Below are positions 16,658 through 55,955 of a DNA stretch of 64,000 bases, one piece after another (the stretch's first letter is position 1; each line of letters starts with the position of its first letter). The position numbers and the translations under genes are program-made. The notes under the pieces are model-generated. The model worked only from the letters and a program-made list of their open reading frames with translations. It made no database searches and was not told where the DNA came from. Source of the stretch: Lentimicrobium saccharophilum (GTDB taxonomy: Bacteria; Bacteroidota; Bacteroidia; Bacteroidales; Lentimicrobiaceae); the NCBI RefSeq assembly GCF_001192835.1, contig NZ_DF968182.1, forward strand, positions 1,029,748-1,093,747, written 5' to 3'.

Positions 16658-17035
16658 TCAGCGTGCAGCGATGGTTTCAATTTCAACCAGCACGCCCAGG
16701 GGAAGGCGCACCACGCCATAGGCAGCACGGGCCGGAGGATTTTCGGGATAATACTTGCCGTAAACCTCGTTCATTGGCACAAAGTTGTCCATATCCGACA
16801 GCAGGCAGGTAGATTTGACCACATCGGCATAGCTGTAACCGGCAGCCTTCAGGATGGCGCCGATATTTTTCATCACCTGTTCAGTCTGTTCTTTGATGCC
16901 GCCTTCCACAATCTTCCCGGTGGCCGGATCAATGGGTATCTGTCCTGAAATGTAAAGGGTTCCGTTGGTTTCAATAGCCTGGCTGTATGGGCCTACGGCC
17001 TTGGGGGCATTCTCGGTGTGAATTACTTTTTTCAT
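16658..17035 (-). CDS. ridA: RidA family reactive imine deaminase
   Basis: This 125-residue protein has the usual RidA length and core motifs: [12 protein letters not shown] at the start, [11 protein letters not shown], and [13 protein letters not shown] with the conserved Arg that binds the carboxylate of 2-aminoacrylate-type substrates. RidA hydrolyses reactive enamines and imines made by PLP enzymes such as threonine dehydratase. It is encoded alone with its own terminator. The PLP enzymes in this window are 11 kb away, so a direct functional link is only possible, not shown. Confidence 0.95.
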
Positions 17036-21591: not shown

Positions 21592-22839
21592 TTACATTTT
21601 CATGTCCACGTAGGTGGTAAGCTTGCCCAGCATGTTCACATAGCTGCCGAATTCATTGTCGTACCAGCCGAATATTTTAGCGTGACAGACAGGGATCATG
21701 ATATCCTGCGTAAGCTCAACGCCGAAGCTTCTGAGAAGGTCGGGGTTCAGCGCCATAAAACCGGTGCGGGTATGGGTCTCGATCCCTTCAATCACTACAG
21801 CGGCACGGCGGCCGATCATATCTGCGGAGACATTTTGTTTTTCGCTGAACTCCAGCATTCCGGCAAGCGGTCCATTGGCAGCTTGCAGGTAAATCTGGTT
21901 CAGGAATTCGCGGGTTACTACGGGCTCTCCAATATCATTGATGGGGGAGTGGAAAGTAATGTTCAGGATAATAAGGCTGGCTGTATTGGTAGGTATGCGC
22001 ACAGAGTCGGCCATAAAGCCGATTTTTTGCACTTCAGGCAATATTTTTTCGAGTGCTTTGGCTGCCCCTGTTGAGGTGATAATGATGTTGTTGAACACCG
22101 AACGGCTTTTCCGCAAATCGGAGGTGCCGGTGGAGGGCACCGAGTCGAGGATGCTCTGGGTGCTGGTACTGGCATGAATGGTGGACATGGAAGCAGTCAG
22201 GATGGTAGAGGTCTCCGGGGTTTCGAGCAGGGGCTTGATCATATGCGAAAGTCCCGTGGTGGTGCAACTGGCTGCAGAGATAATGTGATGCTTGCGCGCG
22301 TCAAAATCAAGGTGGTTGATCCCGTATACCATCATGGAGGCATCGGCCGGCATTTTCTGGGTGGAATCCTTGATTTTGAAGGGGGCGCTGGCGATAACCT
22401 TTTCAGCCCCGGCTTCCAGGTGACCGCGCAGACTGCCTTTGGAATGATCGGCGGGCAGGGTGGGATCGAGAAACGCTCCGGTGCAGTCAACCACCAGCCT
22501 TACGTTGTGCGCCGGCCAGCTAATGTCGCGCGGGTTGCGTGCCTGCTGCAGGAACTGAACCGGCATGCCGTCGATCTCCACGAGGTTCTGATCGCTGTCA
22601 ATGATACGGATTTCACATTGCTTTCCGGAATGGCCATAAAGGAATCTGCTGAGCGAGCCATAAGTGGAGTCGTTCTCTATATTGTGGAGCAATGCTTCCA
22701 GGTTTTTCCCGACCCCGCGACCCACATTTACCACAATACCTCCAAAGTGCTTATTCAGGATGTGGTTCCACAGGGTTAGTTTTCCAATACGCCCGGCTCC
22801 GTTGATGCCAAGGATGTTTTTGCCGTTCACTTTTTCCAT
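21592..22839 (-). CDS. Atypical long glyceraldehyde-3-phosphate dehydrogenase
   Basis: The 415-residue protein is related to type I GAPDH, which oxidises glyceraldehyde-3-phosphate with NAD and phosphate, but is about 80 residues longer than usual. The dinucleotide site is ILGINGAGRIGKLTLW. The catalytic Cys lies in SAASCTTTGLSHMI, where the usual second Cys and Asn (SCTTNCLAP) are replaced by Thr-Gly. The catalytic His is kept in STIHASTSTQ, although the normal Tyr after it is Ser. Phosphate-site residues STGAAKA and RIPTNTAS are close to consensus. The extra length lies mainly in the N-terminal half (residues about 25-65 and 120-150). It may be a divergent GAPDH isozyme or act on another phosphorylated aldehyde. 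It stands alone, flanked by repeats. Confidence 0.85.
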   Translation of the reverse strand: MEKVNGKNILGINGAGRIGKLTLWNHILNKHFGGIVVNVGRGVGKNLEALLHNIENDSTYGSLSRFLYGHSGKQCEIRIIDSDQNLVEIDGMPVQFLQQARNPRDISWPAHNVRLVVDCTGAFLDPTLPADHSKGSLRGHLEAGAEKVIASAPFKIKDSTQKMPADASMMVYGINHLDFDARKHHIISAASCTTTGLSHMIKPLLETPETSTILTASMSTIHASTSTQSILDSVPSTGTSDLRKSRSVFNNIIITSTGAAKALEKILPEVQKIGFMADSVRIPTNTASLIILNITFHSPINDIGEPVVTREFLNQIYLQAANGPLAGMLEFSEKQNVSADMIGRRAAVVIEGIETHTRTGFMALNPDLLRSFGVELTQDIMIPVCHAKIFGWYDNEFGSYVNMLGKLTTYVDMKM

Positions 22840-23405
22840 TTCCAGTGTGTTTTATTCGGTTGGTTGTTGGTGGTTGAATTATTATATATTTGATTTACAG
22901 TGTAATAGTAATTTTCCTACGGTTTTCTTTCAGCTGATAAACATACTGAGGATAAACCATTTAACAAGGGATTTTCCCGGGTTTTCAATGATTTTTTATT
23001 CATGCAGCGCTCTTACGTTTGTTAAACAGCATGCCCCGTGTTTTTGTTGAGTGTCAGGTGCCTGATGAATGCCATTAAATTCCTCAGGAAAAGCACTGAT
23101 TCGTTAATTGAAAGAAGTAAATTTTATAAAAAAGAATAACATCTGAGCGCAAAGGTAACCTGGAGGTGGGTTGAATAATCAGGAAATCAGGAAGATGATT
23201 TTTTTTGTTTGCATGAAATTTCCAACTGAAAGTGACTGACTTAGACGGGTCTCGCCTGAGTCATCCGCACACTGAATCACGGAAATCCCAGAATGGTGCA
23301 GAAGACCTGAAAAGTCATTAAGTAAGAAGACTGGTTAGGCAGTTTTAAAGAGAGAATGGTAATCCTTTGGAAAAATGGCCCGGCCGTGATAAAAGAGCCC
23401 TTTCG
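22840..23405. other. Intergenic region upstream of GAPDH gene
   Basis: No gene is supported. On the minus strand TACCTTTG (23157-23150) matches a -7 box, without a clear -33 partner and 310 bases from the GAPDH start. A degraded copy of the GACCTGACAAG hairpin is at 23304-23340. Confidence 0.5.
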
Positions 23406-24677
23406 TCAGCTTTGCTGCATCTTTTTCCATAGCCTGTCGGCTTGTCTGCGCGCTTCCTCAAGTATTTCACCTTCATTAACCGTAATCACCTGACCGTTTC
23501 TGACAATCAGTTTTCCCTGTGCAATCACATGTTGTATATGTTTGGATTCCAGGCCGAAAAGGAAGTGACCGTAAAAATTTTCCTGGTTAAAAGGGGTGGG
23601 GGAATCGTAGTCAATTACTACCAGATTATTCTCCCTGTAACCAGTAAATCCGTTTTCTTTCAGGTAATTACCAACATTTCTGAAGCGCCGGTAGGTTTCG
23701 GCATAGTCGATGTTTTCGTGGTTCTTTCCCGAAAAAAAGGCTGCTTTGGCGCTGCGCAGCATATCGCTGTGCATGCCGTCGGTGCCAAACATAATGCGGT
23801 CGCCAAGACCTTTTGAATTGAATAATCCCACTGAATTATTTAGGTTGCTTTCCATATTCTGCACCACCCAGACCGGTGAACCGGAGAGTTGCCGCCGCTC
23901 GTATTCGTCAAGATGCAGACAGTGTGCAAGTATGGTTTTCGGGAAATCAAGGACTCCGGCCTGAGCCAGCCGGTCTATCACCCAGGTATGGTAGTTTTCC
24001 AGACAGTGGTTTTCATCTGATATATCTTCGGCCACATGCATATGAATGCCTGAATTCATTTGCCGGGCAAGGTCAACTGCCTGTCTCAGGGTTTCATTGC
24101 CGACGGTGAAGGAAGCATGCAAACCGATCAGGCCCTGCCTGCGGGAAAGGTATGTTTCGGTTTCCCTGAGTCCTTTCCGGGCAATTTCCATTCCGTCACG
24201 GTCGGAGATCTCGTAGCAAAGCAAATGGCCCAGCCCCACGGACTCAAAGGCTTCCGCGATGATTTCAAGGCTTCCTTCCACCGCAAAGGGTGATGCGTGA
24301 TGATCGATGACAAAGGTTACCCCGTTTTTTGCACAGGCCAGGGCGGTCACCAGCGCGCTGGAGCGGATCATATCTTCATCCAGGGATTTGTCGAGGGTCC
24401 ACCAGATGTATTGGAGAATTTCGTTGAAGTCAGCCGGGGTTTTCCTTGGCGCCCTCATGCCGCGGGCAAGTGCAGAGTAGGCATGGTGGTGGCCATTGGC
24501 AAAGGCCTGCGTGATGTATCTGCCGGAGCAGTCAAGAACAGGGTGGTTGTTAACGACCGGTATTTCATCCAAAAAACTGATCCCTTCCTCAGCACCTTCA
24601 CCAGCCAGAATATGGGTTCTGGTGAAGCTGAGCGTTACCGGATCGATGTAGGTTCCGTTTGTTAATAAGACAGCCAT
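23406..24677 (-). CDS. ssnA: SsnA-type amidohydrolase / aminohydrolase
   Basis: The 423-residue protein belongs to the metal-dependent amidohydrolase superfamily, in the SsnA/chlorohydrolase branch. Metal and active-site motifs appear in order: FANGHHHAYSAL (HxH), IGLHASFT, IHMHVAED, ILAHCLHLDEYE and FGTDGMHSDM. SsnA is found with YgfK and the selenium-dependent xanthine dehydrogenase in purine-degrading anaerobes, where it is thought to hydrolyse a ring-derived intermediate; its exact substrate is not settled. It is the last gene of the minus-strand operon, 365 bases after the dehydrogenase. That gap contains repeats, so co-transcription is likely but not certain. Confidence 0.88.
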   Translation of the reverse strand: MAVLLTNGTYIDPVTLSFTRTHILAGEGAEEGISFLDEIPVVNNHPVLDCSGRYITQAFANGHHHAYSALARGMRAPRKTPADFNEILQYIWWTLDKSLDEDMIRSSALVTALACAKNGVTFVIDHHASPFAVEGSLEIIAEAFESVGLGHLLCYEISDRDGMEIARKGLRETETYLSRRQGLIGLHASFTVGNETLRQAVDLARQMNSGIHMHVAEDISDENHCLENYHTWVIDRLAQAGVLDFPKTILAHCLHLDEYERRQLSGSPVWVVQNMESNLNNSVGLFNSKGLGDRIMFGTDGMHSDMLRSAKAAFFSGKNHENIDYAETYRRFRNVGNYLKENGFTGYRENNLVVIDYDSPTPFNQENFYGHFLFGLESKHIQHVIAQGKLIVRNGQVITVNEGEILEEARRQADRLWKKMQQS

Positions 24678-25042
24678 GATTCAATGATTGAAGTTTATAT
24701 GTTACCACACAGGCAAGGTCTGTTCCACCAATTTTGCCGGGAAAAGGACGAGCAGGATTTAAGAACTGTTGTGGTGAAATTCAGTTTTTCCGTCAGTAAT
24801 CCGGGAGCACCTTCCTTCCCGCATCCTTCAGTTTTTAAGTTTTTTTTACCATGTCCCGGCCATTTTCCGCGAATAGGGCGACAAAATTTAAGAACTATTG
24901 TGACCTATTGTGTCTATTGTGGTGAAATTTCAGCTTTTCTGTCAGTAATCCGGGAGAGCCTTTCTTCCCGCATGCTTGAGTTTTTAAAGTTTTTTTACCA
25001 CATAGGCACAATAGGACACATAGAATTCTATGTCAATGCAAT
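24678..25042. repeat. Tandemly repeated spacer between xdh-like and ssnA genes
   Basis: Two imperfect copies of about 130 bases begin near 24758 and 24888, each containing TTTAAGAACT, GTGGTGAAAT, GTCAGTAATCCGGGAG and CTTCCCGCAT. A third partial copy with CTATTGTGGTGAA lies at 25041-25056. CCTATTGTG-type words also occur at 8589-8625 and 11410-11440. I see no gene. Confidence 0.75.
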
Positions 25043-27619
25043 CTATTGTGGTGAATTTTTGGATTCTCTGTCAAGCGGCAAAGAAAACCTCCGTTTCCCG
25101 TCGAAATCACATAGTGCGTTTGCAACCGCGGCGGCGGTAGGAACCAGTCCTATTTCACCCAGTCCTTTAGCACCGTAAGGCCCGACGGGATCTTTAACTT
25201 CCACCCCTAAAACGACGATTTCAGGCATGTCCCTGGCACGGAGAATTTTCAGGTCGCGCATTCCTTCGGAAACCAGATGTCCGCCTGTCATCGGCAGGTC
25301 TTCCGAGAGGGCGTATCCCAGTCCCATGTGCACGGCCCCTTCTATCTGTCCTTCAAACATCCGGGGGTTCATAATCTTTCCGGCGTCATGGGCCGCGTAA
25401 ACAGTTTCAATCCTGCCATGCTCATCCAGCACAACAAGCTGGCTGGCATAACCATAGGCAAAATGCGTGATGACCTCCCCGGCATTGTCTCCCGGTTTGT
25501 TGGTCCAGTCGCAGGTGTAGTTGCCGTAATAACTTTTCCCTGCAAGGTCTTTCAGCTGATGACTTTCAAGGTCTTTCCTGATCCGTTGCGCTGCATCCAG
25601 AATGGCATTGCCCAAGAGGGCGGTGGCGCGGGAGGAGGTGGTCATACCTGTGGGGATCCCCGCTTTACTGTCGACTACCACTTCAACGATGGCAGGCGGG
25701 ATGCCGGTTTCTTCAAACAGCATCTGAGTGGCCAGGGTATGTACGCCCTGTCCCATTTCCGTCCAGCCGTGCAAAAGACGTACCTTGTTTTCCGAAACAA
25801 TTTCAATGATAACATCGCTGAAATCGGTCATGCCGTTGCCCACGCCGCTGTTCTTGATGCCGCACGCAAGGCCTTTGAACCGGGCTTTGTCGTAAAACGG
25901 CTTAATCGCTTCCAGGGTAGCGCGTACGCCAACACCTCCTCGGAGTATCTGCCCGGTGGCAGTCATCCGGCCTTCGGTCAGGGCGTTGTTGAACCTGAAC
26001 TGCCAGCGGTCGAACCCGCCCTGCCGGCATAGGTCATCGATGCAGCCTTCCAGGGCAAAACATACCTGGTTGGCCCCGAAGCCGCGCATGGCCCCCGACG
26101 GGATATTGTTGGTATAAACCGTAAGCGCTTCCACTTCAACGCAGGGGATATGATAAGCCCCCGAGGCATGACCGGCCACCCTTTCCATCACTTTGGTACC
26201 AACGGAGGCATAGGCCCCGGTATCGCCGATGGCATTGAGTCTCAGGCCTGTCAGCAGACCGTTACGGTCACAGCCGATGGCCATGTCCATATAGACAGGG
26301 TGACGTTTGGGGTGCATTCGGATTGACTCCTGCCTGCTGAGAACAACCCTGACCGGTTTTTTCAGCAGCCAGGCGAAAAGGGCGGCGTGTCCCTGCACGG
26401 TAATGTCTTCTTTTCCGCCAAAGCCACCTCCCGAAGATACCAGTGTTACCCTGACTTTCTCCTCGTTCAGGCCAAGCAGTGAAGCTACCTGACGGCGGTC
26501 AACATAAATGCCCTGCCCGTTCGAAAACAGGTGCAGTCCGCTGTCTTCGGGCATTGCCAGTGCCGCTTCGGTTTCGAGGAAGGCGTGCTCTATCCGCTGG
26601 GTCTGGTAAATACCGCGGGCAACAAAGGCCGAACCAGCGATTACCGCTTCCGCATCACCTCCCCTTGAAATCCTGCAGGTTTCCAACAGATTGGATTTGC
26701 CGGGATGAACCCCGGGAGAGCCGGGCCTGATGGCTTCCTGAGGATCGGTAACGGGCGGCAGCACTTCATAGCTGACTTCGATCAGCGCGGCTGCCTGCCT
26801 TGCAGCTTCTTCCGATTCAGCGACCACCCCCGCCAGCACATCGCCAATATACCGGGTGGTTTCCCCTTCGGCAATCATCAGCGGCCAATCGTTGAAAATC
26901 AATCCGGTGTAGCGGTCTCCGGGAATGTCCTTTGCGGTGAATATCTTTACAACACCATTGACTTTCATTGCCTCCTGAACGTCTATTGCTTTGATGACAG
27001 CCTTTGGATGATCGGAGAAGCGCAGCGCCCCGAAAAGCATCCCGTCAACAAACAGGTCGTTGACGAATTTTTTCTGCCCGGTGGCCATTTCAAACGCTTC
27101 ATATTTGGGATAAGCGCTGCCGACATGGGCGGATGCCGGCGGTTCTTCATTTTTTTCTTCCAAACGGAGTTTTAAAGCTGCTTCCGCGATGGCATCCACA
27201 ATTTTTACATAGCCCGTGCACCGGCAAAGGTTTTGATTAAGGGCATGGCGGATCTCTTCGCGCGTGGGTTCGGGGTTCTTCTGAAGCAGGATTCTGGTGC
27301 GCATCAGAAAGCCGGGGCTGCAAAACCCGCATTGAACAGCGCCTTTTTCCACAAAGGCGCGGGCAAGCACATCCCTGATGCCGGCGGGAATGCCTTCAAG
27401 GGTATTCACAACGGTCTTGTCCACTTTTTTCATGGGGGTCAGGCACGACAGCCTGGCTTCCCCGTTGATCTCAACCATGCAGGCACCGCAGGCTCCCTGA
27501 TCTGAACAACCATCCTTTACCGAGGTGATATGCTTTTCATTCCTTAGAAAATCAAGCAGTTTCTTCTCCGGGTTACCGGTGTAAGTCACATCAGCACCAT
27601 TGAGGATAAAGCGTATCAT
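25043..27619 (-). CDS. Selenium-dependent-type xanthine dehydrogenase (fused 2Fe-2S and molybdenum domains)
   Basis: The 858-residue protein fuses an N-terminal [2Fe-2S] part to a molybdenum hydroxylase. The first cluster shows GCSDQGACGACMVEI and the second shows VQCGFCSPG with CRCTGYVKIV. The molybdenum part (about 170-858) contains GGGFGGKEDITVQGHAAL, SGAMRGFGANQ and the candidate catalytic Glu in YGAKGLGEIG. There is no FAD domain. Length and layout fit the family called selenium-dependent xanthine dehydrogenase, whose labile selenium is not a selenocysteine, so no in-frame UGA is expected. It would hydroxylate purines such as xanthine or hypoxanthine. Its start overlaps the stop of the preceding PLP gene by ATGA, indicating translational coupling. 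Electrons probably pass to YgfK, encoded at 38189. Confidence 0.9.
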   Translation of the reverse strand: MIRFILNGADVTYTGNPEKKLLDFLRNEKHITSVKDGCSDQGACGACMVEINGEARLSCLTPMKKVDKTVVNTLEGIPAGIRDVLARAFVEKGAVQCGFCSPGFLMRTRILLQKNPEPTREEIRHALNQNLCRCTGYVKIVDAIAEAALKLRLEEKNEEPPASAHVGSAYPKYEAFEMATGQKKFVNDLFVDGMLFGALRFSDHPKAVIKAIDVQEAMKVNGVVKIFTAKDIPGDRYTGLIFNDWPLMIAEGETTRYIGDVLAGVVAESEEAARQAAALIEVSYEVLPPVTDPQEAIRPGSPGVHPGKSNLLETCRISRGGDAEAVIAGSAFVARGIYQTQRIEHAFLETEAALAMPEDSGLHLFSNGQGIYVDRRQVASLLGLNEEKVRVTLVSSGGGFGGKEDITVQGHAALFAWLLKKPVRVVLSRQESIRMHPKRHPVYMDMAIGCDRNGLLTGLRLNAIGDTGAYASVGTKVMERVAGHASGAYHIPCVEVEALTVYTNNIPSGAMRGFGANQVCFALEGCIDDLCRQGGFDRWQFRFNNALTEGRMTATGQILRGGVGVRATLEAIKPFYDKARFKGLACGIKNSGVGNGMTDFSDVIIEIVSENKVRLLHGWTEMGQGVHTLATQMLFEETGIPPAIVEVVVDSKAGIPTGMTTSSRATALLGNAILDAAQRIRKDLESHQLKDLAGKSYYGNYTCDWTNKPGDNAGEVITHFAYGYASQLVVLDEHGRIETVYAAHDAGKIMNPRMFEGQIEGAVHMGLGYALSEDLPMTGGHLVSEGMRDLKILRARDMPEIVVLGVEVKDPVGPYGAKGLGEIGLVPTAAAVANALCDFDGKRRFSLPLDRESKNSPQ

Positions 27620-28863
27620 AAAAGATCGGTATTTTCCTTCAGAAGGGATGTAACAGAATGAATATCAGGACTAACGGCTTCAGGGATATGCAGGAGTGGC
27701 TGAACTGATTTCAGGTCTTTCAGCCCGCTCCCGGTCAGCAGCAAGACATTTATACTGCCTTTCCCGGTTATTCCCGTTGCACAGGTCAGGAGATATCCTG
27801 CATAGGCAGCGGCAGCAGCCGGTTCAGCAAAGAGGCCCGTTTGCGCGGCCAGTTGCCGTGATGCTTCGAGGATCTGCCAATCGCTCACTTTAAGGGTTTT
27901 GCCTTTGTATTGGAGCAGGTATTTCTCCGCCATCCTGAAATTCCGGGGAATATCCACCGAAATGCTGTCGGCCAGGGTGGAGGAGGGTGTATAGTTGAAC
28001 TCTTTCTTTCCTATATTGTCAACCAGGTTACTGCTGCCTTCGGCCTGTACGGCAACGATCTCCGGCATGCTGTCAGTGATTCCGGATTTCAGCATATCTT
28101 CAAAACCCTTATAGATACCGGAAATGATCACCCCGTCGCCGACCGGGACAAAGATGCGGTCGGGAATCCGGTGTCCCAGCTGGCTGTAAATCTCGAAAGC
28201 TGCCGTCTTTTTACCTTCGATGGTCAGGGGATTATAAGCTGTGTTGCGGTTATACCAGCCGAAATGTTTCGTTGCTTCGATGCTCAGGTCAAAGGCAATG
28301 TCGTAATTGCCATTCACTGGAACCAGCACAGCCCCGTACATCAGTATTTGCGTAAGTTTTGCTGCCGGTGCCGAAGCCGGGGCAAAGATTACGGCTTTCT
28401 GGCCCTGGGCTGCGCACATCCCGGCAAGGGATGAACCGGCATTGCCGGTAGAGGCTGCAACGATGGTGCTGATTTCCTGCTCTTTAGCAAAAGCGGATAC
28501 CACGGCCGAAGCGCGGTCTTTGAACGAAAATGTGGGATTCTGAGAATCATCTTTAATGAAAAGTTCGTGTCCCCTGATTGCTGTTTCCCGGCCGGATATC
28601 CGGTACAACGGGGTGTTGCCGGTTCGCAGAAAGGGCAGACTTCGGGTATCGTTGAAGGGCAGAAGGTCAATAAAGCGGTTTTCTTCAAGTTTTTTGAATG
28701 TCAGTCCGCGGAGCAGCAATGGATTGTAAATGACCTTCAGGATGCCGGCAGGTGGTTGCCCGGCTTTTTGTCTGCCGGCGCATTCGCTGCAAAGGTAAAC
28801 AATGCCTTCGCCGGGAATTTCTCTGCCGCAATCGTTACACTGATAGCTGAATTTTGAATTCAT
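27616..28863 (-). CDS. Threonine synthase-like PLP enzyme with N-terminal zinc ribbon
   Basis: The chosen ATG at 28863 gives 415 residues beginning with a zinc-ribbon-like CNDC ... CSEC; an upstream extension has no family support. The body is a fold-type II PLP enzyme. The Schiff-base Lys is in TFSFKDRAS (near residue 115), the substrate loop is AASTGNAGSS, and the phosphate region is LLTGSGLKD. The closest general family is threonine synthase/threonine dehydratase. Its place between another PLP enzyme (119 bases upstream) and the dehydrogenase (4-base overlap) makes a housekeeping threonine synthase role doubtful. A lyase or ammonia-eliminating role in purine breakdown is my inference. Substrate unknown. 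Confidence 0.8.
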   Translation of the reverse strand: MNSKFSYQCNDCGREIPGEGIVYLCSECAGRQKAGQPPAGILKVIYNPLLLRGLTFKKLEENRFIDLLPFNDTRSLPFLRTGNTPLYRISGRETAIRGHELFIKDDSQNPTFSFKDRASAVVSAFAKEQEISTIVAASTGNAGSSLAGMCAAQGQKAVIFAPASAPAAKLTQILMYGAVLVPVNGNYDIAFDLSIEATKHFGWYNRNTAYNPLTIEGKKTAAFEIYSQLGHRIPDRIFVPVGDGVIISGIYKGFEDMLKSGITDSMPEIVAVQAEGSSNLVDNIGKKEFNYTPSSTLADSISVDIPRNFRMAEKYLLQYKGKTLKVSDWQILEASRQLAAQTGLFAEPAAAAAYAGYLLTCATGITGKGSINVLLLTGSGLKDLKSVQPLLHIPEAVSPDIHSVTSLLKENTDLL

Positions 28864-28982
28864 ACAGCGTGTATTTTTCTGGTTATATTGATGCTTCTCA
28901 GGGGTGACTCCCTTGCTGCACACTTGTCATGATAGCTGCATAGCACTCTTACCACCGGCAAGACTGGTTTCTGAAGTCCGGT

Positions 28983-30461
28983 TTACATGTTTTTCAATAC
29001 GCCTGCTTCTTCGTTAAAAGCTTCGATCATCTCATCCCATTTCTCCGCCTGGTTGAATTGTTTTTCCCAGATTTCACGGTCATACCAAAGCCGGTTCAGG
29101 TCTTCGGTTTCTTTGGCCTGCTGCTCCACCCAGGTGAAATATTTAAGGTTATGAATGGCCTTCCGGTCATAATACCCCAGTTCCCTGAGGTTGTTGCATG
29201 CCTGGCCGTATATGCACTTTTCGAAGTCTTTAGCCGCCTGCAGCATAGTGTAGGGCCCTTTTTCAGCTTCCAGTTCAGGCAGGCGCGACCGGTACATATC
29301 TGCTGAGTCGGTGGCCAGGGTAATTACTACATCATTCCTGTTCATTTCGTAATATTTGGCCGTTTTTATGGCCGACAGCAGATTCCCGATTCCTGAAATA
29401 CCCAGCAGGTGAAGCTGCTCAGTGATGCCCTGGTCGAGACCGCAGGATTTCAGGTATTTGTGTCCGTCCGGCTCATTGAAAAGTCTGAAAACCCGCATGC
29501 AGTCCTCATCATCAATGGCTGTTACCATGTCGGTATTCCTGACATTGTGTACCCATGGCACATGTTTGTCGCCAATGCCTTCAATGCGGTGTCCGCCAAA
29601 GCCGTTCAGCATCAGCGTGGGGCATTGCAGGGCTTCGGAAGCCACTATTTTCATTGCCGGAAAGCGTTTTTTGAGGCGGTCACCGGCACCGATGGTCCCG
29701 GCTGATCCGGTGGCTGAAACATAGGCGGCGAGTTGACTTTTGCCGGTTTTCAGGGCATCATACACTTCTTCTATGGCCGGGGCAGTGATGTTGTAATGCC
29801 ATGCCGGATTGCCGAATTCATCAAACTGGTTGAAGATCACGCAATCTGGCCGGTTTCTTCGAATATCCCAGCACTTATCATAGATCTCTTTTACGTTTGA
29901 TTCACATCCGGGAGTGGCAATCACTTCGGCGCCTATATCTTCAAGCCATGAAAACCGCTCCCGGCTCATCTCCTCGGGCAGAATGGCCACTGCGGTGACG
30001 CCCATCAGCCACGAATCAAAAGCGCCCCCGCGGCAATAGTTGCCGGTAGACGGCCAAACCGCTTTGTGATATGAAGGATCAAACTCGCCGCTGATGATGC
30101 GGGGCGCCAGACAACCATAGGCCGCGCCAACCTTATGTGACCCTGTGGGGAAATACTTGCCGATCAGCATGATAATCCTCGCATCAACCCCCGTAAGTAC
30201 CGTGGGTAGTTCCAGAAAGTTGACCCCACCAAACAACCCGCCGCTTTCCACCGGTTCGTTCTTCCAGGTAATGCGAAAGAGGTTCAGGGGATGGAGATCC
30301 CAAAGACCAATATTTTTCAGAGAATCTTTAATCTTCCCGGGAATAAGCTCCGGATTGCGCATTTGAGCAAATGTGGGCAGGATAATCTGCTTTTCACGGA
30401 AACGATCAATGGCTTTCCGGCGCGAAACAGCATTAACTACACGGTCGGTAACAGGAATCAT
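28983..30461 (-). CDS. Fold-type II PLP-dependent enzyme of unknown substrate
   Basis: The ATG at 30461 gives 492 residues. The protein has fold-type II PLP features: a Lys in PTGSHKVGAAYG (near residue 110) as the likely Schiff base, the substrate loop WPSTGNYCRGGA, and a glycine loop SATGSAGTIGAGD. It is longer than cysteine synthase or YgeX-type diaminopropionate ammonia-lyase and lacks their usual motifs. The C-terminal ~100 residues (about 390-492) are an extra helical part. It is first in an operon with a threonine synthase-like enzyme, a xanthine dehydrogenase and SsnA. I do not recognise a characterised member. Cleavage of an amino-acid-like intermediate is plausible from fold and context only. 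Confidence 0.75.
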   Translation of the reverse strand: MIPVTDRVVNAVSRRKAIDRFREKQIILPTFAQMRNPELIPGKIKDSLKNIGLWDLHPLNLFRITWKNEPVESGGLFGGVNFLELPTVLTGVDARIIMLIGKYFPTGSHKVGAAYGCLAPRIISGEFDPSYHKAVWPSTGNYCRGGAFDSWLMGVTAVAILPEEMSRERFSWLEDIGAEVIATPGCESNVKEIYDKCWDIRRNRPDCVIFNQFDEFGNPAWHYNITAPAIEEVYDALKTGKSQLAAYVSATGSAGTIGAGDRLKKRFPAMKIVASEALQCPTLMLNGFGGHRIEGIGDKHVPWVHNVRNTDMVTAIDDEDCMRVFRLFNEPDGHKYLKSCGLDQGITEQLHLLGISGIGNLLSAIKTAKYYEMNRNDVVITLATDSADMYRSRLPELEAEKGPYTMLQAAKDFEKCIYGQACNNLRELGYYDRKAIHNLKYFTWVEQQAKETEDLNRLWYDREIWEKQFNQAEKWDEMIEAFNEEAGVLKNM

Positions 30462-30477
30462 AGAACACAATTTTACA

Positions 30478-30485
30478 CAAAGTTA
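30478..30485 (-). promoter_or_regulatory. Candidate -7 box of the purine operon
   Basis: TAACTTTG on the minus strand matches TAnnTTTG and lies 17 bases before the ATG at 30461. No clear -33 TTG is seen at 19-21 bases, so the promoter may be weak or need an activator. Confidence 0.4.
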
Positions 30486-30756
30486 AAAATGTAAATCTGT
30501 TATAGATGCATAAGGAGGCCTTTTTAACACAGATATTTATAAATGAATTCTGGGATGAATGCTTATGGGTAAACCTGGACATAAAGTCATGCCGGCCGGC
30601 GATTGCTTCGTGGTTCCTGTTACAGGCCATTGGCCGGATGTATGAATTTTCGTTATAAGGCTGTTCCGGAATGCAGCGGTGGCCTTACCCTGGCATGATC
30701 CGTTGCCGCCGCTTCAGGAACCCCCGCCGTATTCTGCCCGAATTATCAAGGATTTA

Positions 30757-31419
30757 CTACCTGTGATTCTTAGTATACCACTCATTGTATTCTCTGATAA
30801 TCTTTTCGATATCCCAGGCCCTGTATCCTTCCTGCTTGCCGGCTACCTTTGCGGACAGTTCAGGATAGTCCTCCAGGTACTTACTCATGGTTTTTTTGAA
30901 ATTCAGGGTACTGAGCTTCTCCGGTTCACCGCCGTTTTTTATGCAGATGGATTCAGTGTATAGTTTCTCCTCACTGAAACTCAGGTCAATTTTAGTGATC
31001 TTTTGTTTTTCCTCATCCACCACAATCCGTTTTTTCGAATCTTCCGGTGACTCATAGTACCACTTGTAGTAAGTGACCGGACCTTCAATTAACCTGAGAA
31101 AAAAATGCACCCCCCTGGCAGCGGTTTCCGGCCAGAATTTAAAACTCTCATAATATCTGGGCCCCACTTTATAGGCTTTAATGTCTTTGGGCTTATACCT
31201 GACAGCATATTCTTCATCGTCCGGATTGTTGTAAAACAATGCTTTCCGCTGGTTGTCGATATAGTTGTTGAGCTTGATAAAGCCGTGAATCGTATCGTTT
31301 TCAAGTGTAATGACATAACCCGGATAGATCGTCCACAATCTGACAGTATCCCCTTTCTGCTGGGCCGGCAGGTTAGTACAAATCAGGATCGTGAATAATA
31401 ATGTTGTCACCTTTTTCAT
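30757..31419 (-). CDS. Exported protein of unknown function
   Basis: The 220-residue protein has a signal peptide (KVTTLLFTILICTNLPAQ). The rest is a single soluble region rich in Tyr, Lys and Glu, with GYVITLENDTIHGFIKLNN near the mature start and YYESFKFWP mid-way. This TLENDTIxGxI opening is common in uncharacterised Bacteroidota exported proteins. No catalytic motif or T9SS tail is visible. It is monocistronic: the gene upstream on the same strand is absent, and the purine operon begins 287 bases downstream. The function is unknown. Confidence 0.75.
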   Translation of the reverse strand: MKKVTTLLFTILICTNLPAQQKGDTVRLWTIYPGYVITLENDTIHGFIKLNNYIDNQRKALFYNNPDDEEYAVRYKPKDIKAYKVGPRYYESFKFWPETAARGVHFFLRLIEGPVTYYKWYYESPEDSKKRIVVDEEKQKITKIDLSFSEEKLYTESICIKNGGEPEKLSTLNFKKTMSKYLEDYPELSAKVAGKQEGYRAWDIEKIIREYNEWYTKNHR

Positions 31420-31828
31420 GATTTCACTGGTTTTGTTTTCCGCAATATAAGAAAAAAAAGTGATAATTCAAACAAGGGAACCGGAATTGTGAATCCGGAT
31501 TGATAGACGATGTTGCATGCAGGTATTTTCACCGGTGTGCGGGTAAATTATATGTTTTTGCAGACAGACCGGATGTTTGCTTGATTCCTGTGATGATTCT
31601 ATTTACAATAGGATTGCTCTTTAAGGTTGTTTAAACAGTTTCAGCGGTGAGGCCCGCATGAAGATTGCCTCCTGAAAACTGTTTTTATGCTGAAAGCAGC
31701 CGGTTAAGCAGCCATGCAAATGTCGGATTGGCTATATGTTTTAACAGGTGTGAGCAATATTTTTCCGGTTGAGTTGTCGGATAAGTAAAATTGCCGGTAA
31801 TCAATTAAAAAAGATGATTGCAGGTATG

Positions 31829-31930
31829 CATAAAGTAATTGCTGATATTTCTTCATTACGGCCGGGCACTTATCTGCTCTCTCCGGAGGCCGGAGAATTG
31901 CAGAGAAACAAAATGGCGGTAATTAATAGG
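31829..31930 (+). pseudogene. Possible relic of a T9SS sorting domain
   Basis: A short frame reads IADISSLRPGTYLLSPEAG followed by QRNKMAVINR, which resembles the final strands of a T9SS type A domain (LxPGxYxL ... KLVIR). No YPNP-type start or secreted domain lies upstream in any nearby frame. It may be decay of a former gene or coincidence. Confidence 0.3.
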
Positions 31931-32150
31931 CCGGATAATCCGATGCTTCAAACTGCTTCATTGAAAAGGATTATCCTTTCACTGAAGCAGTTTTTCATTG
32001 TAATACGGTCCGCTGAATCAGGATTTCGTTGCGTTTATTGGTCAAATCCGGGCGAATATAAATCCGGCCCCGGCATTGATAAATCGTGTTCAACTCCCCT
32101 TTTTATACAGGCTAACTTTATAATCATTTTAACTGTAAACCCATAAAAAA

Positions 32151-32156
32151 AGGAGG
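32151..32156 (+). promoter_or_regulatory. Shine-Dalgarno AGGAGG before the beta-helix gene
   Basis: AGGAGG lies 5 bases before the ATG at 32162. Full Shine-Dalgarno sequences are rare in Bacteroidota, and most genes in this window have none. It fixes the start and suggests strong or special translation. Confidence 0.7.
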
Positions 32157-32161
32157 TTACC

Positions 32162-34876
32162 ATGAGCAAAAAGTTACGTTTGATTTTTATCGGCTGCGCT
32201 TTAATGTGTTTTACAGGAGCAGGTTATGCGCAGATTTTCATGCAGGGCCTGGTGGAGCAAAATGAGGGTATTTATGCCTGGAATGCCGATGGAACCGGTC
32301 CTGAACCGGCCGCCACCGGCCACATTTCTGAGTCAGGCGCCTGGTATTACTATTGTGCATCCGCTGATTACAACGGAATAAACCCCAACCCCGGTTCAGC
32401 AATGGCACATTTAACGAACATCAGGGGATTCCCGCAGTTTTATGAAAAGCTGTTGCAATATAACTATACACTGGCTGATGTACAGGTTAAATGTACATTG
32501 TCAGACCTGGGCGATGACATCGAAGGACTGGACTGGTTTTCTATTGACGGTAACTCGTTTTCAAATTATTATCATGCCCACCTGATTATTCTGGTGGATG
32601 GCCATGGGATACTGAATTTAATTCTTGATTACAACATGTTGATTGTTAATCAGTATTCTGGTCAAAGGGCGAGTGAATCAGGATATGCACCCGTCAGGGA
32701 TATTTCCGGAGCTGGTCCCGCAAACTTCAGGGAGATTGCTCAGGCTTTTCTTGCAGACCTGGGTAAAGATGAATTAAGATTCATTGGTACTTCCATTGAT
32801 TTCCACTCCGGTTTAAGTGGTAATGGCCGCACTGGTGGCAGGTTCAATATTTCCGGTTACTTTGAAAGAGGGAAACCTGAAATGCCGCTTATCGGACTTG
32901 CAAACGATCATGAGGGACTGGCAGGCTGGAATGCCGATGGTTCCGGTCCTGAGCCTCAGGGTGTCGGGCACAATAATTTCTTCTATTACACGGCTTCACG
33001 CGATTATGGCGGTATAGACCCCCACAGCGGTGCCGCTTTTGCCCACTTCACTGAAGGATATACCGGCTTTAGAAATACACAATTGCAGCTTATGCGTTGC
33101 GGATACCTGACCAGTGACCTGAAAGTAAAAACCGGCCTCTCAAGCCTCGGCCCTGATATCTTTGGGAATGACTGGGGGTACTCCGGATCACACCACTGGA
33201 GCAATTTTTACAACAATTATCTGGTGATTGAACTTAGTGGTGAGCCCATTCTTGTCATGCTGGCCGATACCAACCAAATCGTGGAGTACACTAACGACTG
33301 GACCTGTAAATCGTCATTTTCTCCGGTTTACAATATCTCAGTATCAGAACAGGCAGGCCTGGTAGCCCGGTCTATGATGAAAGATATTGGCAGTCATTAT
33401 CTGTTGCTGAAAACATCCTGCCTGATCCGCCTCCCCGGTAGCGAATTTAATGCCAACGGGCGCTCTGGCGGACTGTGGGAAGTAGTATCAGCCAGCCTGA
33501 CGGGTGAGCATAACAAGGCTACTTTCATTTCCGCAAGCCCTGTCAGTGGCATATGGACTGCCGATCATTCCCCTTACTTTATTGATGACCATGTGATGAT
33601 TGAGAATGGCTCGGTGCTCACGATTGAGCCGGGGGTGGAGATTAAAGTAAGAGGGCAGTTACATTTCGATGTACAGGGGAGTATTGTTGCAGGTGGTGTT
33701 GCCGGACAACCGGTCGTCTTCACCCGTTCAAATCCGCTGTTTTATTGGGGTGGAGTTCAGTTTGCCTCCCCCCCGGAATCCAATGACTCATCAAAATTTG
33801 ACCATTGTATTTTTGAACATTCGCAGGCACAGGGGGAAACTCCCTACAACTGCGGCGGTGCATTTCGGATGAGCGACTACAGTAAACTCAGCATCACCAA
33901 TACATTGTTCAGGAACAACCATGCTGATTTCAATCCTCTCGGATATATTCCTGTGGGCGGCGCCTTAGCAATGATTAATTCAAAACCTTTAATTCAGAAC
34001 TGCGAATTTCTTGACAATGTCGCTGAAGAAGGAGGCGCAATAACTGTCAGTATTGACAGTAAGCCTGTTATTTCAAATTGTCTCTTTGCCCGTAATCAGG
34101 CCGAGGCAGGTGGTGCCGTTTCATTCAGAATGAACGGGGACGGCCTGTTTACGAATTGTACATTTGCAGAGAATACCGCTGACCGCGGGGGCGCCCTGCA
34201 TTGTACCTTTGGCTCTAATCCGTTTATTATCAATTCAATCCTCTGGAACAATTCTGCAAATTTTGGTAAAGAAGTCTACCTGGGTACTGCCGGTTCGCAT
34301 CCGGGATTTTATTATTGCGATATTCAGCTTGGTTCAGCAGGATTCGGAGGTTTCGGCGGTGCTCATTTTAATGGCGATTACTTATTCAATATTGAACGGG
34401 ACCCGCAATTTACCGGGGAGGGTGAATTTCCTTATGCCCTAGGCAATAACAGTTCACCTTGCTGGAATGCCGGAACACCGGATACCTCTGCATGGTTTTG
34501 CCATGAATACCTGCCTGACGTTTGCCTTTGCGGAAATATCAGGATTGGAGATGGCCGGATAGACATCGGCGCCTATGAGTACCTGTTGTCAACCGGTTAT
34601 GAAACTCCTGTGGCAAGCGCGGATGACGGACTGATTATCTATCCGAATCCTTCTTCGGAAGTGATAAGGATTGATTTTGAACTGAAAAATGCCGGAAAGG
34701 TTGTAATAGAATTGTATGACCTCTCGGGCAGGCTGGTTGCATTGCCTTTTGAACAAAACTGCAGCAGGGGCATTCAGAAGCTAAGCTACAATCCTGGTCA
34801 GCTTGCAAGAGGTGTCTATAATTGCCGTATTACAGCAGAAGGCAGAGCCATTAACAGGCTTCTCGTGCGGAACTGA
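32162..34876 (+). CDS. Secreted right-handed beta-helix protein with tandem N-terminal domain
   Basis: The 904-residue protein has a signal peptide ending AGYAQ. Two N-terminal copies of about 215 residues (about 25-235 and 240-450) each begin GLxxxxEGxxxWNADGxGPEP and contain YNxIDP/NP-like and NFY/NYYHAHL/NNYLVIEL segments. I do not recognise this domain. Residues about 460-790 form a parallel beta-helix with GGAxxxxxSKPxIxNCxF-type rungs, as in polymorphic outer-membrane-protein-like surface proteins. The C-terminus is a T9SS sorting domain (YPNPSSEVIRIDFEL, LARGVYNCRI, NRLLVRN). It resembles the protein at 60657 in its helix and leader. The role is probably in surface adhesion or polymer binding. 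The LytTR two-component pair follows 280 bases downstream. Confidence 0.85.
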   Translation: MSKKLRLIFIGCALMCFTGAGYAQIFMQGLVEQNEGIYAWNADGTGPEPAATGHISESGAWYYYCASADYNGINPNPGSAMAHLTNIRGFPQFYEKLLQYNYTLADVQVKCTLSDLGDDIEGLDWFSIDGNSFSNYYHAHLIILVDGHGILNLILDYNMLIVNQYSGQRASESGYAPVRDISGAGPANFREIAQAFLADLGKDELRFIGTSIDFHSGLSGNGRTGGRFNISGYFERGKPEMPLIGLANDHEGLAGWNADGSGPEPQGVGHNNFFYYTASRDYGGIDPHSGAAFAHFTEGYTGFRNTQLQLMRCGYLTSDLKVKTGLSSLGPDIFGNDWGYSGSHHWSNFYNNYLVIELSGEPILVMLADTNQIVEYTNDWTCKSSFSPVYNISVSEQAGLVARSMMKDIGSHYLLLKTSCLIRLPGSEFNANGRSGGLWEVVSASLTGEHNKATFISASPVSGIWTADHSPYFIDDHVMIENGSVLTIEPGVEIKVRGQLHFDVQGSIVAGGVAGQPVVFTRSNPLFYWGGVQFASPPESNDSSKFDHCIFEHSQAQGETPYNCGGAFRMSDYSKLSITNTLFRNNHADFNPLGYIPVGGALAMINSKPLIQNCEFLDNVAEEGGAITVSIDSKPVISNCLFARNQAEAGGAVSFRMNGDGLFTNCTFAENTADRGGALHCTFGSNPFIINSILWNNSANFGKEVYLGTAGSHPGFYYCDIQLGSAGFGGFGGAHFNGDYLFNIERDPQFTGEGEFPYALGNNSSPCWNAGTPDTSAWFCHEYLPDVCLCGNIRIGDGRIDIGAYEYLLSTGYETPVASADDGLIIYPNPSSEVIRIDFELKNAGKVVIELYDLSGRLVALPFEQNCSRGIQKLSYNPGQLARGVYNCRITAEGRAINRLLVRN

Positions 34877-35103
34877 CAGTTAGCTGACTCAAATGCAGGA
34901 TCTTCGGAGAAGCCTTGCTGGTCAGTACACTGATTTTTTTGAAATAAACCTTCTCAACCGGAAGCGGGGATATGGAAAATAGGGTAGTTCGTGGCTGCAG
35001 GCATAGGTTGGGAAGGTTTTTTTCTATGCCGGTTCGTGAACCCCGGCTTGGATGGCGGGCATTCGTTTGCATGGGTCGCCGGGGAATGATAATGAGCTGA
35101 AAA

Positions 35104-35135
35104 TTTGTAAATCAGCACAATAATGCTTATCTTTA
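35104..35135 (+). promoter_or_regulatory. Promoter that sets the LytTR regulator start
   Basis: TTTG (35104-35107) and TATCTTTA (35128-35135) are 20 bases apart, one mismatch from the -7 consensus. An in-frame ATG at 35123 lies upstream of the -7 box, so the ATG at 35156 is the likely start. Confidence 0.5.
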
Positions 35136-35155
35136 AAAAAAAATATGGATTGGAT

Positions 35156-35911
35156 ATGCTGAGGACCGTCATTATTGACGATGAAGCACACATGCGCCAG
35201 ACCCTTGAGAATCTGGTGCATCAGTATTGTCCTAATATTGAAGTGGTCGCAAAGGCCGATGGTGTTGAGAGCGGGGAACTGGCGATCCGGAGGACGCATC
35301 CGGACCTGATACTGCTGGACATACGTATGGAAGACGGAACCGGCTTCGACCTGCTCAGGAGACTTGATCCCATTGATTTTAAGGTTATTTTTATTACCGC
35401 CTTTGATGAATTTGCCATCAGGGCATTTCGTTTTTCAGCGCTTGACTACCTGCTAAAACCGGTTGATCCTGACGAGTTGATTGATGCAGTTCGCAAAGCG
35501 GATGCAACTTTTCAGGGCGATTTCAACACACAGCTGGATGCCCTCAGCGAACACCTGAAGCTGCAGGATAAAACGGCCAGAAAACTGATCGTAAAAACCA
35601 GCGATTTCATTCATCTGTTGTGCATTCAGGATATTCTTTTCTGCGAGTCGGACGGGAGTTATACCAATATATACCTGGCCGACGGATCAAGAATAACCGC
35701 TTCCGCCATACTGCGCGACTACGAGGATATGCTGGCTGATTACGGCTTTTTCAGGGTGCATAAATCATACCTGATCAATGTCAGGTACATTCAGAAATTC
35801 GAACGTGCCGATGGCGGGTATGTGATCATCAAAGGCGACCACAAGGTTCCGGTGGCTTCGCGGAAGAAGGAACTCTTGCTCGAGATGTTTGAAAGACTGG
35901 CTCATATCTGA
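35156..35911 (+). CDS. LytTR-family response regulator
   Basis: The 251-residue protein has a receiver domain (about 1-120) with acidic pocket IIDDE, phosphoacceptor Asp55 in LILLDIRMEDG, a switch Thr in IFITAFDE and Lys in YLLKPVD. The C-terminal LytTR DNA-binding domain (about 145-248) shows the typical SDFIHLLCIQDILFCESDG and FFRVHKSYLINVRYI. Such regulators bind pairs of short direct repeats and usually answer to a His_kinase-type sensor. That sensor is encoded 205 bases downstream. The nearest upstream gene encodes a secreted beta-helix protein, a candidate target. The start is chosen from the promoter position and family alignment. Confidence 0.93.
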   Translation: MLRTVIIDDEAHMRQTLENLVHQYCPNIEVVAKADGVESGELAIRRTHPDLILLDIRMEDGTGFDLLRRLDPIDFKVIFITAFDEFAIRAFRFSALDYLLKPVDPDELIDAVRKADATFQGDFNTQLDALSEHLKLQDKTARKLIVKTSDFIHLLCIQDILFCESDGSYTNIYLADGSRITASAILRDYEDMLADYGFFRVHKSYLINVRYIQKFERADGGYVIIKGDHKVPVASRKKELLLEMFERLAHI

Positions 35912-36116
35912 ACCCCTTCTGCCTAACTGACTGAATCTGAAGGGAATTGCTCCCGCTTTTAATCTGAAGGTATTGCAGGTCCCCTTTTGAGGAAAGTTAT
36001 GTTTTTATAATGATTCATTATCTTGCCGGCTGACCGGAACTATGCTCTCCTGCATGCACGCTGACCAATGCTGACCTTTCTGCCGGTTATTGGAAATCAT
36101 TAATGCTGATAATGTC

Positions 36117-41100: not shown

Positions 41101-41419
41101 CGTCCTGCATATCGATGCAGGGTTTCGTAATCTCAAGATCATCCAGCGTTTGTATGGTTTTCAGCTCAATGTAGCTTGCTCCGCATAGCCATGCGCTGAC
41201 AATATTCTGCGCAAGCTGGGTGTGGGGGCCCGCGGCCACGCCGAATGGAGTCCTCAGATGTTGTCCGAAAATCCGGTAATTTTCAGTGCCGTTTACCTCA
41301 GGATTGAAGAACAATGCTTCCGGAATGCTGAATATCTGCCGGTTGCGCCGGTAATCTTCTTCTATCATCTGCCACAGCCTGTGGATGGAGGCAACTGAGA
41401 ATCCTGTGGAATGAGCCAT
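38189..41419 (-). CDS. ygfK: YgfK-like multidomain flavin/iron-sulfur oxidoreductase (putative selenate reductase family)
   Basis: The 1076-residue protein starts with a dihydroorotate dehydrogenase-like region (about 1-430; RTPFGVAAGPHTQLAQN, ISTNITLSTMHGCPP). A GltD-like cluster follows (HAPCVDECPTNQDIPEY). Next comes a two-dinucleotide-fold part (AAVIGAGPSGLSFAYF near 535, NILVIGGGNTAMDVARTA near 670). Ferredoxin-type clusters follow at about 890-970 (CLQCDELCNICVTVCPNRA, CNECGNCTTFCPSSG). The family name selenate reductase is historical. Current evidence places YgfK with purine catabolism, where it probably moves electrons between the molybdenum hydroxylase and NAD(P) or reduces a purine-derived intermediate. 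It is transcribed divergently from the YgfJ-like gene and lies 7.7 kb from the xanthine dehydrogenase operon. Confidence 0.9.
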   Translation of the reverse strand: MAHSTGFSVASIHRLWQMIEEDYRRNRQIFSIPEALFFNPEVNGTENYRIFGQHLRTPFGVAAGPHTQLAQNIVSAWLCGASYIELKTIQTLDDLEITKPCIDMQDEGYNCEWSQELRIHESFGEYLKAWILIHLLHHRLGHPGAAGGFIFNMSVGYNLQGILNENVQWFLSKMQDCQPEKEAMISSLLPIYPELRDLSIPDRISTNITLSTMHGCPPGEIEKIGHYLLTEKKLHTFIKLNPTLLGEEQLRKILNNQLGYKTMVPDAAFEHDLKYEDALGIIRRLEMAARQNNLTFGVKLTNTLECINHRKVFPPKEEMMYMSGRALHPISVNVAAKLRRDLGPGLHISFSGGADCFNISDLLQCGLMPVTVCSDLLKPGGYGRLQQYIEQTSGINTADTARQAMYLEKYALSVVDDMRYRCDPFSEKSIKTGRKLDLFDCIHAPCVDECPTNQDIPEYLHHISRGETGKALDAIHRKNPFPNVLGSACDHPCQLRCTRINYDQPLKIRELKLFAAHNGKASDVPLVKENGKSAAVIGAGPSGLSFAYFMRLAGFRVEIFESHPDPGGMVRDAIPPFRMKAELLMKDVERIRSTGVIIHFNSPVNRQLFGQLRRDFDYVYIAAGARRFKTLPLEGAGAGGVVDPLTFLKLAKAGKKSDTGRNILVIGGGNTAMDVARTARRTAAEDASVSVVYRRSRAEMPASREETKAALNEGIRLLELLSPEQIHLKDGHIVALSCAKMKLITPPDGGRAAPCKTDEPLITLPVDTLIPALGQETDIDFATPEELSLRPESDYETQLDRVYIGGDAARGAATIVKAAGDGRRAAAAIAASAGIALDTDNPPAAKHLEKSELIIRKSRRINIDPAMENTPPLLTAETAREEALRCLQCDELCNICVTVCPNRANISYQTPAVDIPQWKMINHKNGISFEQTGILKIAQSTQVLNLAGFCNECGNCTTFCPSSGAPFRDKPRFCLSRESFNKTDNGYMLQWANGRLTLLHRKGDLVSRLTRQADGYLYETENMKVAFGLTDFRPYGPEIINSGMTNPDLSEASTLKFLIDNPDITSGSLIAEQPYT

Positions 41420-41473: not shown

Positions 41474-41566
41474 TAAGAGGGAACCTGCGTGGGATTTCAT
41501 AACCCTCGGTTTTACCGTGGTCAGTTCATGCAGGTATGTAAAGATAATGAAAATCATTTCAAATTT

Positions 41567-46582: not shown

Positions 46583-46617
46583 GTCTTTTCTTTTTTAATC
46601 GGTCATTCTCATGGATT

Positions 46618-55392: not shown

Positions 55393-55404
55393 GATAAAAT
55401 GGAT

Positions 55405-55872: not shown

Positions 55873-55955
55873 GTTAGTTTGTTGTTTAAAGGTTTGTTGA
55901 TCTGATGGTTAATTATTTTTTGCGATAAACAAATGAAGAATTCTTTTTGTTGTTT

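Follow-up and report, generated by a model that had tools for sequence, protein, structure and literature searches.

A threonine synthase-like protein as candidate replacement for diaminopropionate ammonia-lyase in the purine gene set of Lentimicrobium saccharophilum

The stretch of the Lentimicrobium saccharophilum genome analysed in the present study (64,000 nucleotides, C1:1029748-1093747, hereafter the window) carries a purine gene group in which the genes for an SsnA-type aminohydrolase and a xanthine dehydrogenase (XDH) adjoin those for two fold-type II pyridoxal phosphate (PLP) enzymes, here labelled PLPa (a threonine synthase-like protein) and PLPb (a protein of 492 residues; Table 1). 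The genome measures 4.51 Mb in two contigs and is 97% complete, and its nearest named relative is a Lentimicrobium metagenome-assembled genome with 98% identity over PLPb (L013). We propose that these presumably co-transcribed genes form part of a Bacteroidota version of the reductive pathway for urate, the cause of gout, and other purines that is known from Escherichia coli and clostridia. PLPa would replace YgeX, the 2,3-diaminopropionate (DAP) ammonia-lyase that acts last in the pathway, and PLPb would be an extra enzyme. We put the probability of this explanation, the best overall for the comparisons described below, at about 0.6.

An earlier note on this DNA, made from the window alone, had stated that YgeX, YgeY, YgeW and HyuA are missing and that the PLP pair in their place may catalyse a different route from ring-opened purine. 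All four are indeed absent from the window, and their matches in the genome lie outside it, except for PLPa as a 28% partial match to YgeX. A search of the genome with E. coli K-12 YgeW, YgeY and YgeX (locus L093) and the HyuA of a relative (L019) as queries recovered three of the four, and protein families were scored with NCBIfam models against their cut-offs. YgeW (C1:995607-996791; 70% identity to E. coli; TIGR03316, 643 bits, cut-off 500) and YgeY (C1:994330-995469; 53% identity to E. coli; TIGR03526, 494 bits, cut-off 321) stand 33-35 kb left of the window, where they close a tightly spaced gene run opened by an XdhC-like factor and two subunits of a second xanthine dehydrogenase (L121). 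HyuA (C1:1912342-1913619; 68% identity to the relative's cluster HyuA; TIGR02033, 462 bits, cut-off 393) is encoded 0.82 Mb right of the window and adjoins a 207-residue protein, a look-alike of which stands between ssnA and hyuA in L014, L019 and L055 (L122). For YgeX, the E. coli query gave no full-length match in the genome (at best 28-30% identity to a portion of the protein), and a search with a Bacteroidota YgeX found nothing at E 1e-30. The pathway set of L. saccharophilum is spread over three places, not lost. Some relatives keep YgeW, YgeY and HyuA beside ssnA-xdh-PLPa-PLPb, and in relative G009 a single contig (L123) carries the XdhC-like factor, two XDH subunits, YgeY, YgeW, HyuA, SsnA, XDH, PLPa, PLPb and YgfK. 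It is thus highly probable that the genome belongs to the reductive urate (purine) pathway, with a scattered and nearly complete gene set. A different route in place of four enzymes was rejected, since three of them are present, and the PLP pair does not amount to a whole new route; one member can stand for YgeX and the other may be an addition. The earlier note was right that the two PLP enzymes belong with purine genes, that YgeX is missing and that at least the last step must differ.

As refuting its reading, the earlier note had named a complete canonical cluster elsewhere in the genome combined with a PLP pair that does not accompany purine genes. The observations differ from this on both points: the genes outside the window lack YgeX, and co-occurrence of the PLP pair with purine genes was borne out in a genus and order sample, a phylum sample and a sample of named loci. 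The first comprised 17 genomes, nine PLPb-positive and five PLPb-negative from the genus and three PLPb-positive from the order. YgeW, YgeY and HyuA were each found in 11 of the 12 PLPb-positive genomes, one YgeW being a 234-residue piece, one YgeY a 148-residue piece and one HyuA two pieces with stops between them; the misses were in G003 (72% complete) for YgeW and HyuA and in G015 (89% complete) for YgeY. None of the five PLPb-negative genomes has YgeW, YgeY or HyuA, and these gave only distant full-length matches of at most 31% identity and short pieces (at most 44% over 69 residues, E 8e-6 or worse). In the phylum sample, PLPb was present in 31 of 345 genomes, and PLPa (E ≤ 1.3e-78) in 30 of these 31 and in none of 44 genomes chosen from the 314 PLPb-negative ones, weaker matches in four of the 44 (3e-37 to 2e-45) being taken for threonine synthases. 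In 18 of the 30 genomes the PLPa and PLPb genes share a contig, at a distance of 39 to 23,738 bases, and in the other 12 they are on different contigs. Stretches around 16 of the 31 phylum PLPb loci held a uricolytic gene in every case, PLPa in 10 and YgeX in none. Among the named PLPb loci, which are the best 80 of 586 from a contig scan, a canonical uricolytic gene is present in 64 and PLPa in 54, and the gene arrangement is thus not due to chance. YgeX occurs in three of these 80 loci (one a partial match at the locus edge), and PLPa together with YgeX in none. Nine of the 16 named loci without a canonical gene are shorter than 7.5 kb, and the remaining seven span 12-17 kb, so that some PLPb genes do occur away from the cluster.

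Haloarchaea provided the strongest single indication that PLPa, not PLPb, occupies the place of YgeX. A plasmid search with PLPa returned 18 haloarchaeal records with 36-38% identity over nearly the whole protein (14 annotated as threonine synthase and four without annotation), a further haloarchaeal match that was only partial, and 11 records from bacteria at 30-34%. In four of the six stretches examined (H. marismortui pNG700, Haloterrigena pHTUR01, and Natrinema and Haladaptatus plasmids), the PLPa relative lies in a purine gene set with genes for SsnA-like and HyuA-like amidohydrolases, a molybdenum hydroxylase, a D-aminoacylase, a Zn-dependent hydrolase and an LLM-class oxidoreductase. 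The Zn-dependent hydrolase of pNG700 passes hydantoinase/carbamoylase models, and its LLM-class oxidoreductase is under every cut-off, all F420 families included. No match to YgeX or PLPb was found at E 1e-6 in any of the six stretches. With PLPa, the haloarchaeal proteins form one clade (ultrafast bootstrap 99) that excludes the Priestia threonine synthase. The pNG700 'thrC' shares both the clade and the motifs of PLPa, whereas its surroundings differ from the window in having no PLPb match and in including the D-aminoacylase and LLM-class oxidoreductase genes. The 'thrC' genes in the haloarchaeal purine gene sets of L154, L155, L156 and L157 belong to the PLPa clade and are probably misnamed threonine synthases. 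The yqeB, hydantoinase, ssnA and xdh genes of pNG700 (tags pNG7...) are tabulated in PMC2276186.

Considering these results, we propose the following scenario. XDH would act before YgfK, SsnA, HyuA, YgeW and YgeY, and the sequence of steps would lead to DAP; in the known pathway, SsnA carries out ring opening after YgfK. PLPa, a threonine synthase relative without the substrate-motif residues of ThrC, would then form an external aldimine with DAP through Lys115, and after removal of the alpha proton it would expel the beta-amino group to give 2-aminoacrylate, which would yield pyruvate and ammonia. PLPb would be the second enzyme of this end module, with DAP or the ureido precursor of DAP as its substrate for racemization or for beta-elimination from, or replacement on, a beta-substituted alanine. 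The replacement of YgeX by PLPa as DAP lyase appears probable. More tentatively, PLPb may catalyse a reaction new to purine breakdown, such as that of a lyase or racemase acting on 3-ureidoalanine or DAP, and PLPa may be a second, independently evolved DAP lyase common to Bacteroidota and haloarchaea; if so, the reductive purine pathway has two endings of different origin and reaches into archaea.

Several observations weigh against this scenario. PLPa passes the thrC model TIGR00260 at 182 bits (cut-off 167). YgeX (DpaL) and PLPa both belong to fold type II of the PLP enzymes and close the same set of genes, and the reaction of YgeX is the one proposed here for PLPa. PLPa, with approximately 25% identity to YgeX over 149 residues, differs in having Thr139 and Asn207 where E. 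coli YgeX carries Asp120 and Asp189, the two bases of YgeX, of which Asp120 is the base for D-DAP. Because of these two replacements, PLPa is, as judged from the alignment, no YgeX by descent, and any cleavage of DAP by PLPa would have to rely on other residues, for which Asp243 is a candidate. A literature search on the catalytic residues of YgeX gave nothing usable among the best 10 of 453 matches. The window SsnA, with SsnA as the best family for the gene, scores under both family cut-offs (PRK07203, 368 bits, cut-off 444; TIGR03314, 323 bits, cut-off 455.5), and no residue of the window XDH aligned to Glu606 of E. coli XdhD, which Li et al. (PMC12507026) tied to the first pathway step. The SsnA-like (286 bits, cut-off 444) and HyuA-like proteins of pNG700 are likewise under their family cut-offs, and two of the six haloarchaeal PLPa relatives (Salinigranum and Haloprofundus) lie outside a purine gene set, that of Haloprofundus being followed immediately by an M20 peptidase gene that weakly matches YgeY. 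In the phylum sample, G196 is PLPb-positive without a PLPa match, and six of the 31 PLPb-positive genomes carry PLPa and a YgeX-like protein together. Strict exclusion between PLPa and YgeX, which holds in the 80 named loci, thus fails at the genome level and was rejected. Of the 43 named loci in which the sequence continues for 5 kb or more downstream from PLPb, seven have neither PLPa nor YgeX.

PLPb passes no family cut-off, the best scores being those for cysK (107 bits, cut-off 351) and cysKM (104 bits, cut-off 344), and its closest resemblance in both sequence and fold is to cysteine and cystathionine beta-synthases (4aec_B, E 5.8e-14; template modelling score 0.75 by target length and 0.51 by query length; model pLDDT 80). 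It differs from O-acetylserine sulfhydrylase and cystathionine beta-synthase in its identity of approximately 25%, in approximately 80 extra N-terminal and 100 extra C-terminal residues, and in a GIGDKH(V/I)P loop, found in every PLPb aligned, where a plant cysteine synthase has GIGAGFIP. The loop is kept in two plasmid relatives from Rhizobium and Bosea with 41-43% identity. PLPb adjoins YgeX in L063 and L090, so PLPb probably adds a step, which would be at the level of DAP, rather than replacing YgeX; a partial YgeX match also lies within 10 kb of it in L089. The Rhizobium and Bosea plasmid relatives (L152, 11971-13470; L153, 12070-13404) are encoded near M20 hydrolase and TauE/SafE genes, and that of Bosea has RidA and pyruvate carboxylase genes within 8 kb and a YgeX-like frame with a stop codon 4 kb off. 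We guess that these relatives may serve another beta-substituted alanine, such as one of legumes. In L055 (7293-7754) and L050 (9378-9839), genes that we take to be Lrp/AsnC-like regulators stand divergently and directly upstream of PLPb, possibly as an amino-acid sensor of the module.

The alternative that PLPa is an ordinary threonine synthase placed in the operon by chance, and PLPb an ordinary cysteine synthase, draws on the TIGR00260 match, on predicted structures whose nearest folds are threonine synthases for PLPa (pLDDT 88) and cysteine synthases for PLPb, and on the genome having no other thrC-family match over the cut-off. We nevertheless regard it as very improbable. NPYR(I/L)EGQKT and VGNAGN are the motifs in threonine synthases, the nearest family to PLPa, from B. 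subtilis (6CGQ), from A. aeolicus (2ZSJ) and from a hom-thrC-thrB operon of Priestia, and in ThrC the Arg of NPYR and the Asn of VGNAGN bind the substrate phosphate. PLPa instead has NPLTIEGKKT and VGDG. Thr214 stands at the place of the NPYR Arg in the PLPa open reading frames (ORFs), with Leu in four of 75, and Asp243 is present in all 75 ORFs examined, a total in which several genes count twice, and also in the six relatives from haloarchaea. A literature search on the roles of the phosphate-binding residues of ThrC gave nothing usable among the best 10 of 32 matches. Furthermore, no match to homoserine dehydrogenase (PF00742) was found in the genome, compared with 14 of 14 controls, leaving no known route to the ThrC substrate, and a separate threonine synthase is encoded in the relatives G027 and G009, beside what is presumably a thrB-like or ThrH-like gene (L115, L117). 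PLPa and PLPb follow the purine genes, and PLPb is under the cysteine synthase cut-offs. These comparisons indicate that PLPa is probably not a threonine synthase, and the changed motif residues and the lack of a homoserine dehydrogenase match make unlikely the plain threonine synthase that the earlier note had named as the alternative for PLPa. Homoserine dehydrogenase had no match in 10 of 15 genomes (that of L. saccharophilum and 14 relatives), which suggests threonine and methionine auxotrophy in much of the genus.

The roles of the two proteins might also be reversed, PLPb being the terminal lyase, on DAP or directly on albizziin, and PLPa doing an extra job. The M20 and TauE/SafE neighbours of the plasmid relatives, with RidA and pyruvate carboxylase in Bosea, would suit a pyruvate-yielding beta-lyase, and the invariant Asp-Lys-His of GIGDKH(V/I)P would form a polar pocket if the loop is equal to the substrate loop of cysteine synthase. 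This is unlikely, given that a lyase is already there where PLPb stands beside or near YgeX and that the six haloarchaeal stretches have PLPa and no PLPb match. Slightly less likely is a racemase role for PLPb, by which the D form of DAP or albizziin delivered upstream would be turned into the L form for PLPa, a role that concerns PLPb only and is compatible with PLPa as the lyase. Since Thr139 takes the place of the D-DAP base of YgeX, PLPa may accept one enantiomer only. The upstream intermediates were proposed to be R/D in PMC12990295, and HyuA was described as D-stereospecific in PMC12507026. PLPb also occurs beside YgeX, which is reported in the latter source to use both enantiomers, and is unmatched in the haloarchaeal stretches, which argues against a racemase. 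It is improbable, finally, that the two enzymes convert DAP into something other than pyruvate, such as cysteine or a different beta-substituted alanine formed by beta-replacement. The resemblance of PLPb to cysteine and cystathionine beta-synthases, and genes annotated as sulfite exporter TauE/SafE family beside its plasmid relatives, are consistent with such a reaction; against it, the listed cluster neighbours include no conspicuous gene for sulfur or acceptor supply, though none was specifically searched for. PLPa as the lyase with PLPb as an added enzyme thus remains our preferred explanation.

The literature compared comprised PMC12507026, PMC12990295, PMC2276186, PMC11448449, PMC12542679, PMC12213782 and PMC4016543. 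The reductive uric acid cluster of E. coli K-12 consists of XdhD, YgfK, SsnA, HyuA, YgeW, YgeY and YgeX (PMC12507026). The gene set of L. saccharophilum resembles it in a molybdenum hydroxylase and in YgfK, HyuA, YgeW and YgeY families over their cut-offs, with an SsnA-type gene under the cut-off, and differs in having PLPa and PLPb instead of YgeX, in the distribution of its genes over three places, in the lack of an FAD-subunit gene between the neighbours of the window xdh, and in the lack of YqeB. Exchanges of single steps have been described for the pathway, namely UacX for YgfK, UacY for YgeW and a putative F420-dependent enzyme in Chloroflexota (PMC12507026). The C. difficile variant likewise swaps single steps for other enzymes, but it exchanges ygfK and ygeW and keeps YgeX (PMC12507026), whereas YgeX itself would be exchanged here. 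Only in 2025 was the reductive urate pathway described in full, in gut bacteria (PMC12990295). The word Bacteroid is absent from the main text of Li et al. (PMC12507026), and Bacteroidota is not among the four phyla cited for the cluster in PMC12542679, where ygeX belongs to a six-gene marker set. No paper on a threonine synthase-like or second PLP enzyme in the pathway appeared among the matches listed, as judged from titles and the start of abstracts in a search that did not cover the founding cluster papers. If PLPa is the missing lyase, purine users among Bacteroidota and haloarchaea could escape cluster searches that depend on ygeX as a marker, and the annotation 'threonine synthase' is wrong for a group of proteins; PLPb would indicate a pathway step or side branch that has so far gone unrecognised.

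Table 1 Features of the window of Lentimicrobium saccharophilum (positions within the window)
Feature	Position	Strand	Basis
SsnA-type aminohydrolase	23406-24677	-	Best family; corresponding position in the clusters of relatives
XDH, fused Fe-S and molybdopterin subunit, 'selenium-dependent XDH' family	25043-27619	-	TIGR03311, 905 bits (cut-off 830)
PLPa, threonine synthase-like fold-type II PLP enzyme, 415 residues from ATG 28863	27616-28863	-	ThrC-like sequence and fold
PLPb, cysteine synthase/cystathionine beta-synthase-like fold-type II PLP enzyme, 492 residues from ATG 30461	28983-30461	-	CysK-like
YgfK, reductive dearomatase	38189-41419	-	TIGR03315, 921 bits (cut-off 835); 7.7 kb from PLPb
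MocA-like molybdenum cofactor nucleotidyltransferase	41489-42202	+	TIGR03310, 92 bits (cut-off 186, not reached)
RidA-type enamine/imine deaminase	16658-17035	-	TIGR00004, 174 bits (cut-off 106); outside the operon

The ATGA overlap between the PLPa stop and the XDH start (27616-27619), reported in the earlier note, is exact, as is the 119-base gap between PLPa and PLPb (28864-28982) with the starts given in Table 1. The ORFs extend further up, to GTG 28923 for PLPa (27616-28923) and to TTG 30470 for PLPb (28983-30470). Alignments with most relatives begin near residue 21 in the PLPa frame and at residue 3 or 4 in that of PLPb, and the ATG codons are therefore the likely starts. The label 'selenium-dependent' for the XDH, likewise from that note, agrees with the family match and goes no further than homology, as the genome has no match to the selenium marker YqeB (TIGR03309); none of 15 genomes had one over the cut-off, and three of 14 controls had matches, one of them over it. 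A selenium link for PLPb through selenide supply was set aside with the absence of YqeB; selD itself was not sought. No riboswitch or other RNA matched Rfam in the window at gathering scores, and promoter and terminator scans of 22800-31000 were near the shuffled expectation (10 vs 7.8 and 12 vs 11.2, respectively).

The ygfK gene stands directly before PLPb in the relatives L016 and L019. In the window, approximately four genes lie between the two (30757-38177), a separation not seen in those relatives; we take them to include a secreted-repeat protein and a two-gene LytTR-type regulator/kinase pair. The MocA-like gene is divergent from ygfK and holds the same divergent place in several relatives. 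RidA would be a possible helper for 2-aminoacrylate.

Single steps also vary among relatives. In four Bacteroidota purine clusters (L137, L138, L146 and L147), a PreA/DHOD-like protein, with the family checked in L137, replaces full-length YgfK, as in the C. difficile variant with UacX, and a short YgfK-like partner is present in three of the four, including L137. In L134, L135, L136, L139, L143 and L144, a carbamoyltransferase of approximately 334 residues in the place of YgeW is nearer to ornithine carbamoyltransferase models than to YgeW, the family having been checked in L134. Elsewhere in the window, 45020-47844 encodes a citrate lyase alpha-like citF (496 bits, cut-off 501) and a beta-like citE (under its cut-off), and a similar-looking citF/citE-like pair lies near ygfK in L019. 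Positions 54673-59363 hold a probable carotenoid gene group, in which a CrtI-type desaturase passes NF058655 at 722 bits (cut-off 640) and the names of the other genes are our assumption.

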